The notes beneath the pieces were generated by a model. The model ran no database searches, had not been told where the DNA came from, and saw only the letters and a list, made by a program, of their open reading frames with translations. Both the position numbers and the translations under genes were made by a program. Below, piece after piece: positions 8,602-53,606 of a DNA stretch of 64,000 nucleotides. Source of the stretch: Haladaptatus sp. ZSTT2 (GTDB taxonomy: Archaea; Halobacteriota; Halobacteria; Halobacteriales; Halococcaceae); the NCBI RefSeq assembly GCF_037081775.1, contig NZ_JBAMHQ010000001.1, positions 1,674,001 to 1,738,000 of the forward strand, given 5' to 3'. The stretch's first letter is position 1. The number at the start of each line of letters is the position of its first letter.

Positions 8602-8627
8602 GTTACGCGAGCCTAGGCGGTCGAAGT

Positions 8628-8635
8628 GATAAAGG
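8628..8635 (-). promoter_or_regulatory. TATA box of srp54
   Basis: CCTTTATC reads on the minus strand 27-34 bases before the srp54 ATG, the spacing expected for a leaderless haloarchaeal transcript. It lies in the 60-base gap after ftsY. Confidence 0.55.
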
Positions 8636-8661
8636 CTTTTTCTCGGGCGGTGGCCCCGAGA

Positions 8662-14008: not shown

Positions 14009-14298
14009 TTGTCAACGAACGCGAAACCCCGGAGGGCCTGCTCGTCTCCGTCTGTGACTCTGAGATTCTCGGAAAAACGTTCTCGGAGGGCGACGTCACC
14101 ATCTCGGTGAGCGAGAGCTTCTACGACGGCGAGGAGATGACCGAAGAGGCCGTCATCGCAAGCCTCCGTCGCGCGACGGTCGCAAACATCGTTGGCACGC
14201 GCTCGATTGCCCTCGCGGTCGAACACGGCTTCGTCGATGAGAGCACCGTGCTCACCATCGGTGACACCCGCCACGCGCAGGTGCTTCGACTCGGATAA
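14005..14298 (+). CDS. DUF424 family protein
   Basis: A 97-aa protein matching the archaeal DUF424 family, with VCDSEILGKTFSEGD near residues 16-30 and the AxxANIVG motif near 58-65. The family is conserved in archaea and often sits near translation genes; its biochemical role is unknown. It overlaps the TPR gene by four bases, so the two products are made together. Confidence 0.8.
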   Translation: MIVNERETPEGLLVSVCDSEILGKTFSEGDVTISVSESFYDGEEMTEEAVIASLRRATVANIVGTRSIALAVEHGFVDESTVLTIGDTRHAQVLRLG

Positions 14299-14434: not shown

Positions 14435-15688
14435 ATGGGAACCCAAGAGTCAGCACCACTCGACGTCGCCCGGTTGCGAGAGGATTTCCCGATTCTCTCG
14501 CGGACCGTCGGGGACGACACGCCGTTGGTGTATCTCGACAACGCCGCAACCAGTCAGACGCCAAACCGCGTCATCGACATCTTCGGGGACTACTACCGGG
14601 GGTACAACGCGAACGTCCACCGGGGCATCCACTACCTGAGTCAGGAAGCCTCCATCGCCTACGAACAGGCCCACGACCGCGTTGCAGAGTTCGTCGGCGC
14701 AGACGGCCGCGAGGAGATGATTTTCACGAAGAACACGACCGAGAGCATCAACCTCGTCGCCTACGCGTGGGGCTTGAACGAATTAAGCGAGGGTGACAAC
14801 GTCGTGCTCACGGAGATGGAACACCACGCCTCGCTCGTCACCTGGCAGCAGATCGCCAAGCGAACGGGCGCAGAGGTGCGCTACATCCGTATCACCGAGG
14901 ACGGGAAACTCGATATGGAGCACGCCCGCGAACTCATAGACGACGACACCCAGATGGTGAGCGCCGTCCACATCTCGAACGTGCTCGGGACGGTCAACCC
15001 CATCTCCGACCTCGCCCAACTCGCCCACGACCACGACGCCTACATCTTCGCAGACGGCGCACAGGCCGTCCCGAACCGCCGCGTGGATGTGAAAGACTTG
15101 GGCGTTGACTTCTACGCCTTTTCGGCCCACAAGATGTGCGGCCCGACGGGCGTAGGCGGCCTCTACGGCAAGAAAGCCATCCTCGAAGACATGGAGCCGT
15201 TCCTTTACGGCGGCGAGATGATTCGCAAGGTCACCTACGAGGAGTCGACGTGGAACGACCTGCCGTGGAAGTACGAAGCGGGCACGCCGCTCATCGCAGA
15301 GGGCATCGCCTTCGCTGAGGCGTGTGACTACTTAGACGACATCGGGATGGACAACATTCAGGCCCACGAACACCAGCTTGCGGAGTACGCGCTCTCGCGG
15401 TTCGCTGAGTTCGACGACGTAACCACCTACGGGCCGGGTCTCGGTGAAGACCGCTCCGGGCTCGTCGCGTTCACGCTCGACAGCGTCCACGCCCACGACC
15501 TCTCCAGCATCGTCAACGACTACGGCGTGGCCATCCGCGCGGGCGACCACTGTACGCAGCCGCTCCACGACCGCCTTGGGATCTCCGCGTCCGCTCGCGC
15601 ATCGTTCTATCTCTACAACACGCGCGAGGAAATCGACGCACTCGTAGACGCGGTGGACGCCGCTCGCGAACTGTTTGCTGATATTTAA
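14435..15688 (+). CDS. sufS: Cysteine desulfurase SufS
   Basis: A 417-aa PLP enzyme that takes sulfur from cysteine for Fe-S cluster assembly. PLP lysine K233 lies in SAHKMCG, D207 pairs with the ring nitrogen, H131 stacks on it, and catalytic C373 is in RAGDHCTQP. This is the group II (SufS) loop. I chose the ATG at 14435 because it starts the conserved N-terminus; the frame upstream is low-quality sequence. It is followed, after an unusual 489-base AT-rich gap, by sufU on the same strand. Confidence 0.96.
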   Translation: MGTQESAPLDVARLREDFPILSRTVGDDTPLVYLDNAATSQTPNRVIDIFGDYYRGYNANVHRGIHYLSQEASIAYEQAHDRVAEFVGADGREEMIFTKNTTESINLVAYAWGLNELSEGDNVVLTEMEHHASLVTWQQIAKRTGAEVRYIRITEDGKLDMEHARELIDDDTQMVSAVHISNVLGTVNPISDLAQLAHDHDAYIFADGAQAVPNRRVDVKDLGVDFYAFSAHKMCGPTGVGGLYGKKAILEDMEPFLYGGEMIRKVTYEESTWNDLPWKYEAGTPLIAEGIAFAEACDYLDDIGMDNIQAHEHQLAEYALSRFAEFDDVTTYGPGLGEDRSGLVAFTLDSVHAHDLSSIVNDYGVAIRAGDHCTQPLHDRLGISASARASFYLYNTREEIDALVDAVDAARELFADI

Positions 15689-15815
15689 TCGGACCGTTCC
15701 ACTGGCTGCTTTTTACGAATTTGTAAAAACCGCGAACGAAACCCCCCCAGACACCCCTCGTTTTCTCGCCCACCCCCATGGGCGTGCGGTGAATCGTCCC
15801 CCAACGAGCCACCGC

Positions 15816-15833
15816 GGTTCACCCCCGTGAACC
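15816..15833. repeat. Inverted repeat GGTTCAC-CCCC-GTGAACC
   Basis: A perfect 7-bp stem with a CCCC loop, 128 bases after the sufS stop, at the edge of the AT-rich block. Confidence 0.6.
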
Positions 15834-15874
15834 ACCCCCTTGCTGTATAGTATTGATTCGCGTCCCCACGCGAA

Positions 15875-15892
15875 TTCGGTTACGAAACCGAA
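15875..15892. repeat. Inverted repeat TTCGGTT-ACGA-AACCGAA
   Basis: A perfect 7-bp stem with a four-base loop. A second short one, CAGCA-GTT-TGCTG, follows at 15903-15915. Confidence 0.6.
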
Positions 15893-15942
15893 ACATACGA
15901 CTCAGCAGTTTGCTGCAATTTTCCCCCGCCAATCCCCCACAG

Positions 15943-15982
15943 TTGATACCCCATTCCAAGAACTCGGAATCTCTGGTATCAA
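15943..15982. repeat. Nested inverted repeat
   Basis: The outer arms TTGATACC (15943-15950) and GGTATCAA (15975-15982) are perfect complements. Inside them ATTCC (15953-15957) and GGAAT (15966-15970) also pair. The result is a 13-bp interrupted stem, long enough to be a folded RNA or a protein-binding palindrome. Confidence 0.6.
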
Positions 15983-16145
15983 TCATATAATGAACGTTAT
16001 CGGTAATAAAGTTATTGCTAATCACTCATTCTTGATAGGTGGAATTTGCCGTAATCAGACTTTATTCCACACACTATCGGTTATTGAGATATTTATGTAT
16101 ATTTTTTCAGACTATTTCTGAACGCACGTTTTCCGCTGCGGAATC

Positions 16146-16153
16146 CTTTTAGG
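16146..16153 (+). promoter_or_regulatory. TATA box of sufU
   Basis: CTTTTAGG, 25-32 bases before the ATG at 16178, so sufU can be transcribed independently of sufS. Confidence 0.5.
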
Positions 16154-16177
16154 CTGCACTCTCATATTCAGGACAAT

Positions 16178-16597
16178 ATGGGACTGGGTTCGGACATGTA
16201 CCGACAGCAGATTCTCGACCACTACAAAAACCCGCGTAACTACGGGAAATTGGAGAATCCGACGTTCACGCACGTCGGCGAGAATCCACTGTGTGGTGAC
16301 GAGATTCGTATGGACGTCGTCTTAGACGAGGACGAAGAAACGATCGTCCGCGTTGCCTTCACCGGCGACGGCTGTGCCATCAGTCAAGCAAGCGCCAGTC
16401 TGCTCTCACAGAAGCTGCCGGGAATGACCGTAGACGAACTCGAAGCCTTAGACCGCGACGACATGACCGAGATGCTCGGCGTTGACATCAGCCCGATGCG
16501 CATCAAGTGCGCTGTGCTCGCCGAGAAAGTCGCCCAGGACGGTGCGGAAATTTACTTCGGTGAGAAAGAACTCGATAAAACCGTCACCGAAGAGTAA
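16178..16597 (+). CDS. sufU: Fe-S cluster assembly scaffold / sulfur-transfer protein SufU
   Basis: A 139-aa IscU/SufU-type protein. All metal or sulfur ligands are present: C39 and D41 (NPLCGDE), C66 (GDGCAIS) and C111 (RIKCAVL). In SufU systems the protein binds Zn and accepts persulfide from SufS, or it acts as a scaffold. The sequence between C66 and C111 has the longer spacing that is more SufU-like than IscU-like. The partner sufS lies upstream across the AT-rich gap. Confidence 0.92.
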   Translation: MGLGSDMYRQQILDHYKNPRNYGKLENPTFTHVGENPLCGDEIRMDVVLDEDEETIVRVAFTGDGCAISQASASLLSQKLPGMTVDELEALDRDDMTEMLGVDISPMRIKCAVLAEKVAQDGAEIYFGEKELDKTVTEE

Positions 16598-42516: not shown

Positions 42517-42869
42517 TCGTGTCCACAACTGGCCTGTGTGCGCGTAAAACAGTTCCGCATACTCTCTCAACAGTGGACAAATCGACAGGTAGCGCCCGTC
42601 AGGCGGCTTAACTGCGCGGTCACCCGGCGTAACTCACTCACCTCCTGCTTACCTCGGGTATTTACATTACCAATAGTTACCGTCTAACTGGGAGTTACCC
42701 GAATTCGCGTATCGTCATATCGTGTTTGTGTCACGCAGGGTTGCGGGAACTCCTCCACCCACCAGGTGGCCACAGGCAAAGCGGGTTCCCCCACCCCCTT
42801 CCCGTGGAACATGGTATTTTCCCACCTCTCTCCCCTTTCCTCAAAACCCGTGAGCACGTACTGGTCACC
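42517..42869. other. Non-coding gap between alaS and tspO
   Basis: These 353 bases contain no credible gene. The alaS promoter lies at the left side (TTTTAC on the minus strand about 30 bases before its ATG). In the middle is an AT-richer block (42655-42720) with a perfect hairpin TAACT-GGG-AGTTA (42685-42697) inside a larger CGGGTA/TACCCG pairing. The right part is C-rich and leads to tspO. Confidence 0.6.
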
Positions 42870-51765: not shown

Positions 51766-52476
51766 ATGGGCGAGACGGTAGTAATTTCGGGGGTGGGGCC
51801 GGGACTCGGGGCGGCGCTCGCGCGCCGGTTCGCGGTCGAAGGGTGTCAGATTGCGCTGCTCGCACGGTCGGGTGACTACCTCGACGCACTTGTCGACGAA
51901 CTCGACGCCGCGCCCGGAACCGTCCTCGCCGTCCCTGTGGACGTAACCGACCCTGCGGCCGTGGCCGCCGCCTTCGCCACCGTCCGCGAGGCGTTTGGCC
52001 CGGTCTCCGTGCTCGTCAACAACGCGAGCGACTCGGCGCGGAAGGGCGTGCGAGACATCTCGCTCGCTGAGTTCGAACACGCCTGGCGCGTCGCCGCCGT
52101 CGGTAGTCTGCTCTGTACGAAAGCCGTCCTCCCCGACATGCTCGACGCCGAACGCGGGACCATCATCTTCACCGGCGCGACCTCCTCGGTTCGCGGTAGA
52201 GAGGGCGCGGTCGGCTTTTCGGCCGCCAAGTTCGCGGTTCGCGGGATGGCCGAATCCATGGCGCGCGAACTCGGCCCCGAGGGGATTCACGTCGCCCACG
52301 TCGTCATCGACGGCCCGATTCGAGACCCGACGGTCACGGATGCAGCCGTTGAGGGCGACCCGTACCAGTACCTCGACCCAGAATCGATTGCGAATTCGTA
52401 CTGGCATCTCGTAGAACAAGAACCGGACTCATGGACGCTCGAACTGGACGTGCAAGCGCACGTCGAGACGTTTTAA
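51766..52476 (+). CDS. SDR-family protein with Phe in place of catalytic Tyr
   Basis: A 236-aa short-chain dehydrogenase. The cofactor motif GVGPGLG is at 9-15 and NNAS at 85-88. The catalytic stretch reads F151-S-A-A-K155, so the usual Tyr of YxxxK is Phe while Lys and a Ser/Thr pair (GATSS, 137-141) remain. Activity must be altered or missing unless another residue substitutes. The gene overlaps the convergent orc gene by four bases. Confidence 0.85.
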   Translation: MGETVVISGVGPGLGAALARRFAVEGCQIALLARSGDYLDALVDELDAAPGTVLAVPVDVTDPAAVAAAFATVREAFGPVSVLVNNASDSARKGVRDISLAEFEHAWRVAAVGSLLCTKAVLPDMLDAERGTIIFTGATSSVRGREGAVGFSAAKFAVRGMAESMARELGPEGIHVAHVVIDGPIRDPTVTDAAVEGDPYQYLDPESIANSYWHLVEQEPDSWTLELDVQAHVETF

Positions 52477-53606
52477 AGCCGGTCTAAGACGGCTTGGGCG
52501 TCGTATTTCAGCGTCAACTCGCGCGACCGGCCGCGGCCTTCGACGTTCGTGTAGCGCGCTTCGATGAGGCCGAGTTGGTCGAGTTTGTTGATGAGTTCAG
52601 AGTAGCGCGTGTAACCGAGGTCGGTCTCCTCGTGGAACGACTCGTAGACGGCTCCCGCCTGCTCGCCTTCGTGTTCTGCAATTACCTTGATGAGCGCACG
52701 CTCTGGCTCTGACAAGCCTCTGAGGCTCCGCGAGAGGTGGATGTACTTCGATTTGTCGAAGGCGGCTTCCACGTCGTCGCCCGTGACGACGCGACTCGCG
52801 CGCATCTCGGCGTTCAGCCCCGCCCGGCGCAGGAGGTCAATCCCGACGCGCAGGTCGCCTGCGTCCGCGGTGAGCGCGGCCACGCGGTCTAACACGTCGC
52901 CTTTGATGACGCCCTCGTGGAAGCCGGGTTTCGCGCGGTCTGCGAGGATGTCGCGAATCGCGGCTTCGTCGTAGGCCGGGAAGAACACCTCTTCGGGGCG
53001 GAACACGCTCTGGACGCGGCTGTCGAGTTCCTCGATAACGTCCAAACTGAGGTCTGAAGAAATCACCACGACGCCGATTTTCGCCCCGGCGTGGGCCTCG
53101 TGAGCGCGCAAAAGCGAGTAGAGCGTGTCTGAAGCCTCCGATTCGTAGAACAGGTAGTTCACGTCGTCGAGGGCGACCACCAGCACTTCGTCTTCGTCCA
53201 CGAGGTGGTCGGTGACTTGGCCGAACAGCTTTTTAAAGGAGATGCCGCTTGAGGGCGGCTCGTAGTCGAAGATTCCCTGGAAGATGCGCGAGAAGACGGA
53301 GTAGCGCGTCGAATCCACCTGACAGTTGACGCGCACCGTGCGCACATCGGTTTCTGCGTTGAGTTCCCCGAACAGGCTCTGGACGGCGGTCGTCTTGCCA
53401 GTTCCGGGCGGCCCGCGAATCAGGACGTTCAGCGGGCGCGACCCCCGCACCGCTGGCCGGAGTGCGTATTTCAGACTCCGCATCTGCGTCTCGCGGTGGC
53501 GGAATACTTCGGGGACGTAGTCGATTTCGAACACATGCTCGTCTCGGAACACCGACTCATCCCACGAAAGCATCCCCCCGTCGGGGTCATCAGCCATCAC
53601 TTTCAC
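52473..53606 (-). CDS. orc: Orc1/Cdc6-type replication initiator (orphan copy)
   Basis: A 377-aa AAA+ initiator with Walker A RGPPGTGKT (64-72), Walker B with D147-D148 (VALDD, not the more common DE), and a C-terminal winged-helix domain (VYESFHEETDLGYTRYSELINKLDQLGLIEA). The N-terminus could start at M4 (MADDPDG), preserving the frame. I see no origin recognition boxes nearby, so this may be a secondary initiator that does not mark an active origin. Confidence 0.9.
   Translation of the reverse strand: MKVMADDPDGGMLSWDESVFRDEHVFEIDYVPEVFRHRETQMRSLKYALRPAVRGSRPLNVLIRGPPGTGKTTAVQSLFGELNAETDVRTVRVNCQVDSTRYSVFSRIFQGIFDYEPPSSGISFKKLFGQVTDHLVDEDEVLVVALDDVNYLFYESEASDTLYSLLRAHEAHAGAKIGVVVISSDLSLDVIEELDSRVQSVFRPEEVFFPAYDEAAIRDILADRAKPGFHEGVIKGDVLDRVAALTADAGDLRVGIDLLRRAGLNAEMRASRVVTGDDVEAAFDKSKYIHLSRSLRGLSEPERALIKVIAEHEGEQAGAVYESFHEETDLGYTRYSELINKLDQLGLIEARYTNVEGRGRSRELTLKYDAQAVLDRL

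Follow-up and report, generated by a model that had tools for sequence, protein, structure and literature searches.

To our knowledge, it is for few archaeal small RNAs that the mode of action has been established. The sponge RNAs CsrB and RsmZ are formed by many hairpins with a repeated GGA motif in their loops, which is bound by the protein CsrA. In sX13 of Xanthomonas, three stem-loops display loops of 4C or 5C and repress mRNAs with 4G motifs (PMC3771888; here and below, "in part" marks statements that rest on a portion of the source, as in this case). Among the archaea, sRNA132 of Haloferax volcanii is a proven transcript of 138 nt with proven ends that belongs to the phosphate regulon (PMC6560208, in part).

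The locus compared here with these systems is the gap between sufS and sufU in Haladaptatus sp. ZSTT2. It is numbered within the window, which is the whole 64,000-nt stretch of DNA that was analysed. We think, with slightly better than even confidence, that the left two thirds of this gap are a genus-specific intergenic gene on the minus strand, whose product is a non-coding RNA with GGGG loops.

Genomic setting and composition

The window is haloarchaeal, with archaeal 16S, 23S and 5S rRNA genes and two tRNA genes at its start, and it belongs to a chromosomal contig 2.74 Mb long. The gap is flanked by sufS (Aminotran_5), ending at 15688, and sufU (NifU_N), starting at 16178, both on the plus strand, which bears out the size of 489 nt given in the first-pass annotation. 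It is the longest among 25 compared gaps of at least 50 nt, 9 of which exceed 150 nt, in a comparison based on a crude ORF choice under which some of the gaps above 150 nt may contain missed genes. The abrupt shift in composition that had been claimed is real. In its left part the gap is rich in C and poor in G (GC skew of −0.33 at 15800-15999), and in its right part it is AT-rich, with a GC content of 0.385 at 16000-16199 vs about 0.6 around it. The description as AT-rich holds for the right half only and not for the gap as a whole, with its GC content of 0.47.

It had also been stated that no gene explains the gap, with which the present data agree: neither of the two gap ORFs tested has a Pfam match. 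Substitutions in the gap are spread evenly over the codon positions (9/8/7 and 11/11/16 in the right half), and on this ground a coding ORF at 15840-16121 was rejected, as was a small one that would start at the ATG close to 15989. A known RNA family was also dropped, with no match in the gap at an Rfam gathering score; a permissive Rfam search returned only sR16 at 16.4 bits (gathering score 70) and sR46 at 14.1 bits (gathering score 50).

Conservation and range

The genus was sampled by three genomes: G000, which is that of the window, G001 and G002. The gap is present in all of them, with lengths of 489, 478 and 497 nt, respectively. Within it, 40 of the 43 sites of 15940-15982 are the same in the three species, for which the third codon positions of sufS give a fraction of 0.60 as reference (P = 1.3e-6), and so are all 18 sites of 15899-15916, both blocks having been picked after inspection. 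The three-way identity of 15689-15845 is 0.36, which is below that of synonymous sites, and most hairpins are nonetheless kept there. Other gaps of the window differ in length within the genus. The one before the sufS ORF (14009-14191) has 183 nt in G000 and G001 and about 1265 nt in G002, where there is an insertion just upstream of sufS. The short gaps 42571-42725 and 8602-8661 correspond to about 4.35 kb in G001 and about 3.45 kb in G002, respectively, and are therefore regarded as insertions or gene gains.

Outside the genus, nine genomes picked for the closeness of their sufS and sufU were inspected. Four family sisters have gaps of 45, 46, 55 and 56 nt, with little beyond a GGAATCCTTTTGCG box; in a fifth one the same box accompanies 254 nt of unrelated sequence, and in the four genomes from other families the gap ranges from 52 to 242 nt. 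A larger distance between sufS and sufU is seen in many further genomes. The SufU scan that provided gap positions and the background for the hairpin counts kept 80 of 268 relatives, apparently none of them from the genus, with a best SufU identity of 84-86% vs 92-96% inside the genus. The refuting condition set by the first-pass annotation, a simple short gap in relatives, gives a divided answer, the island being found in all three genus genomes and in none of the inspected genomes beyond. Given its absence from the inspected sister genera, the gap insert was probably gained once.

Searches over the order lead to the same range. Among 392 order genomes, the pattern of hairpin A (Table 1), with up to 3 mismatches, is found in 3, those of the genus alone. 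An RNA model of the conserved part, R1, matches 3 of 243 order genomes, all from the genus, with E values from 1e-37 to 2e-32; this model was built from the same three genomes, and the strict search filters lose some weak matches. Repeats elsewhere in the genome were sought by BLAST, which short single hairpins could escape, and the gap has one match, itself, while the 18-mer of hairpin B occurs in one exact copy per genome. The search for plasmid relatives ended without a match, and so did the one in viral contigs. As an observation on another contig, C3 (L116), 69% of its first 20 kb matches a plasmid of Natrinema zhouii at 89% identity, perhaps through a recent exchange between haloarchaea. 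In a literature search no paper on this element was recognised, which is weak evidence of novelty.

These results bear on the proposal of a decayed mobile element, which finds no support in view of a single genome match and the retention of length, position and structure in all three genus genomes. We regard any functionless remnant, either of a mobile element or of a decayed gene, as highly unlikely. Such a remnant would suit the absence from the inspected sister genera, but the island is single-copy and has no protein match, hairpin A is much better kept than synonymous sites, and it is the loops that are kept while the stems change.

Predicted hairpins and their loops

The four perfect inverted repeats listed in the first-pass annotation are exact (15816-15833, 15875-15892, 15903-15915 and the arms 15943-15950/15975-15982). 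With G-U pairs allowed, the minus strand of 15717-15992 forms 6 local hairpins with 41 stem pairs, a number that none of 200 dinucleotide shuffles reaches (20.2 ± 7.8 pairs). For the three species the counts are 41, 46 and 48 with shuffle means of 19-20, and in each of them none of 200 shuffles attains the observed value. The layout on this strand is a nearly invariant 5′ hairpin, two more hairpins and then up to four hairpins with GGGG tetraloops (Table 1). The predicted RNA (15724-15983, minus) has a minimum free energy of −101.7 kcal/mol and a z-score of −4.08.

Table 1. Features of the sufS-sufU gap and their state in the three genus genomes (window coordinates).
Feature	Position	Strand	Remarks
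Proposed RNA gene, ~258 nt	15725..15982	minus	5′ end ~15980-15984, 3′ end ~15725; hairpin row in 3/3 genus genomes
TATA-like box TTTATTA	16004..16010	minus	same in three species; ~25 nt before hairpin A; weak
Hairpin A	15943..15982	minus	nearly invariant
Hairpin B, CAGCA-AAC-UGCUG	15903..15915	minus	within 18-nt invariant run 15899-15916
Hairpin C	15875..15892	minus	two pairs altered on both sides, pairing retained
Hairpin D, GGGG tetraloop	15857..15874	minus	GGGGG in G001
Hairpin E, GGGG tetraloop	15816..15833	minus	tetraloop in G000 and G001; no GGGG hairpin in G002
Hairpin F, GGGG tetraloop	15786..15815	minus	two-part stem
Hairpin G, GGGG tetraloop	15767..15784	minus	G002 stem sequence differs, hairpin and loop retained
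T5 run, proposed terminator	15725..15729	minus	in 3/3 species; predicted from sequence
AT-rich right half, proposed upstream control region	16011..16134		invariant blocks 16026-16037, 16058-16066, 16078-16087
sufU core promoter GCTGCGGAATCCTTTTAGG	16135..16153	plus	separate element; same in three species

Hairpin A is composed of an outer stem UUGAUACC/GGUAUCAA, a 4x2 internal loop, an inner stem AUUCCGA/UUGGAAU and a GUUC loop; a kink-turn in the internal loop was dropped, as no fit was found by eye. The 33 pairs of hairpins A-D are formed in 99.0% of 96 cells. The covariation score of the three sequences falls within the range of the shuffles, being reached by 165 of 500. Alifold energies are low against column shuffles on both strands (z = −3.99 for minus and −4.07 for plus, 0/100 shuffles in each case); as controls, four sufS segments give z from −1.12 to +1.47, and the sufU coding sequence is also low with −2.62 and −2.75. 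The island of G002 (L004, 1956-1973) contains in addition a perfect palindrome of its own, ACGAGCCACGTGGCTCGT, in place of a short spacer.

Exact GGGG tetraloops on the minus strand number 4 in G000, 3 in G001 and 3 in G002, and the hairpins F and G of G002 have other stems under the same loop. Over both strands of 927,871 haloarchaeal bases, comprising the window, L024-L103 and L107-L117 and including the other two islands, 43 hairpins with a GGGG tetraloop were counted, those of the islands among them, and the three genus islands are the only places with at least two of them inside 300 nt. The contrast is smaller when loops of 4-8 nt are allowed: G-loop hairpins then appear in groups of three in L053 and L103, and a group of four C-loop hairpins appears in L075. 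As the stems diverge while the loops stay constant, we infer that function resides in the loops. In our opinion, this constant four-base loop on changing stems makes the idea testable by altering the loops alone.

The gap also holds the most G- or C-runs of at least 4 per 280 nt, namely 10, in the window scanned from 4401 on. With its 10 G-runs of at least 4 next to an AT-rich stretch, it could recall an active or dormant replication origin, in which an AT-rich unwinding stretch would lie beside G-string repeats, as haloarchaeal origins join AT-rich DNA to G-string ORB repeats (PMC3528665, in part). We find this hardly credible: origins of this kind are looked for immediately next to orc1/cdc6, and here the closest such gene is about 36 kb off. 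The hairpins, for their part, do not repeat a single unit and are confined to one side. An ORB-like pattern was not found in the gap. The orc1/cdc6 initiator gene of the window (52473-53606, minus; TIGR02928, 335.7 bits) is one of about seven above the cut-off in the genome, so that the right part of the window may be close to an origin.

Strand and ends of the candidate RNA

Among the cells changed with respect to G000, 13 pair only on the minus strand and 3 only on the plus strand (sign test 0.011, for cells that are not independent). Wobble-type vs other transitions number 17 vs 8 at paired sites and 22 vs 29 at unpaired ones; the wobble excess is absent from the unpaired sites, and it is weaker when set against them. 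Exact tetraloops over the three species are 10 on the minus strand vs 3, of CCCC, on the plus strand. Alifold gives −55.32 with a covariation term of −2.09 for minus vs −39.95 with a term of +2.01 for plus, in a comparison where the G-rich strand folds better through composition. The fold z-scores do not separate the strands, the plus strand being often the lower one on pieces. The wobble changes together with the uniformity of the loops favour the minus strand, which we take as the probable one provided that an RNA exists.

Transcription of the minus strand would start near 15982 under the invariant TTTATTA box. A promoter PWM was obtained by a position-limited motif search in 91 upstream sequences, six genes of doubtful start (judged by hand) and sufU being excluded. 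Its match on the minus strand that starts at 16016 scores 5.73, which exceeds the window's 99.9th percentile of 5.16, and the score in G001 is 5.74; in G002, the candidate box site is not among the matches listed. An earlier free search had yielded a weak motif. Haloarchaeal TATA boxes are described as TTWT and the BRE as CGAAA (PMC4983044, in part), and the BRE at the candidate promoter is weak. Promoter matches are common on both strands of the AT-rich stretch, and the claim of an RNA promoter therefore stays weak. At the other end, the RNA would finish at the conserved T5 run; in Haloferax volcanii, the motif at which intergenic transcripts terminate is a T stretch (PMC7237163, in part).

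The opposite strand deserves to be weighed as well. The RNA could be a long structured 3′ UTR of sufS, or be processed from it, and end near 16102-16107, where a T5-T6 run is conserved on the plus strand in all three species. It would need no promoter of its own, its fold z-scores at least equal those of the minus strand, and G-rich sites of mRNAs could be paired by its C-rich loops, in the manner of sX13 (PMC3771888, in part). CCCC in the apical loops of several stems, the sX13 feature, would be present solely with the plus strand as the RNA, and in unequal loops. The tetraloop counts, the changed cells and the alifold values given above run against this strand, the covariation term being positive, and no conserved plus-strand promoter was found. 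For these reasons we hold a plus-strand RNA to be unlikely, although with an appreciable chance.

Relation to the sufU promoter

The GGAATCCTTTTGCG box is found at the same place as the sufU core promoter in the five family sisters, and it is kept here as GGAATCCTTTTAGG at 16140-16153. Given the short gaps of the sisters and the retention of this box, about 430 nt precede a complete sufU promoter. The idea of a regulatory region for Fe-S assembly, understood as something that sufU needs, finds no support here, as the sisters have only the promoter box and the box is intact in this genome; a regulatory role specific to the genus is possible. A second invariant TATA-like box, GACTTTATT, lies on the plus strand at 16058-16066, about 110 nt upstream of the sufU start, and is possibly a second sufU promoter or the divergent partner of the RNA promoter.

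The whole gap might also act as DNA, that is, as a cis-acting control region whose palindromes and AT-rich blocks bind transcription factors of sufU or sufS, with no RNA involved. The location upstream of sufU and the invariant blocks of the right half agree with this. Nevertheless, four family sisters manage with 45-56 nt and the same box, and the hairpin sequences are unlike one another. Moreover, one would not expect sites for DNA-binding proteins to form hairpins in a set order, with equal tetraloops and wobbles biased to one strand. We therefore see such a control region as rather unlikely. A minus-strand RNA, the reading we prefer, would be read against both sufS and sufU, and its place adjoining sufU is probably incidental.

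Proposed mode of action and comparison with known systems

From three readings offered by the first-pass annotation (decayed mobile element, small RNA gene, regulatory region), the small RNA gene, here a predicted candidate, is the best fit. We infer that the segment 15725..15982 is transcribed. The RNA would begin with the nearly invariant 5′ hairpin with its internal loop, followed by two hairpins and then by up to four, each presenting an exact GGGG tetraloop. These loops could be several equal binding sites for one partner, which might be an RNA-binding protein sequestered in the manner of a sponge, or C-rich stretches of mRNA bound loop by loop. Hairpin A is conserved in sequence, and hairpins D-G in their loop and shape; the 5′ part would be recognised in detail. 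The predicted hairpins are compatible with all three modes: sponging of a protein, pairing of the loops with C-rich mRNA, or a quadruplex made of the loops. That the equal GGGG hairpins are a scaffold whose loops act jointly, either as a sponge for a haloarchaeal RNA-binding protein (a convergent counterpart of CsrB) or as an inter-hairpin G-quadruplex, is in our view doubtful. Potassium is very high inside these cells, which would favour a G-quadruplex. Archaeal ncRNA is enriched in G4-prone motifs (PMC7565180, in part). If the candidate holds, it would show how a single genus can acquire a new RNA gene, in a gap that contains little beyond a promoter in sister genomes.

With the haloarchaeal origins beside orc1/cdc6, which carry G-string ORBs (PMC3528665, in part), the gap shares an AT-rich stretch near G-runs, but it is not beside orc1/cdc6 and no ORB repeat was found in it. 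The likeness to CsrB and RsmZ, which belong to another domain of life, is one repeated G-containing loop, which hints at several copies of the partner. CsrA (PF02599) is absent from the genome by a search that was positive in 3 of 14 control genomes, and a true CsrB system is therefore excluded. Like sRNA132, the candidate is intergenic, limited to one genus and fixed in place between two protein genes, and both have a conserved predicted structure; sRNA132 has promoter elements of its own, to which a putative, weak box would correspond in the candidate (PMC6560208, in part). The candidate differs from sRNA132 in being about 260 nt long, in having several G-loop hairpins and in being predicted only, and we claim no sequence relation between them. 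Finally, sX13, like other sRNAs with C-rich loops, resembles the candidate in its several stable stem-loops that carry the same short homopolymer run in the apical loops. It is, however, bacterial and pairs CCCC loops with GGGG motifs of mRNAs, whereas the strand favoured here presents GGGG, the complement (PMC3771888, in part).
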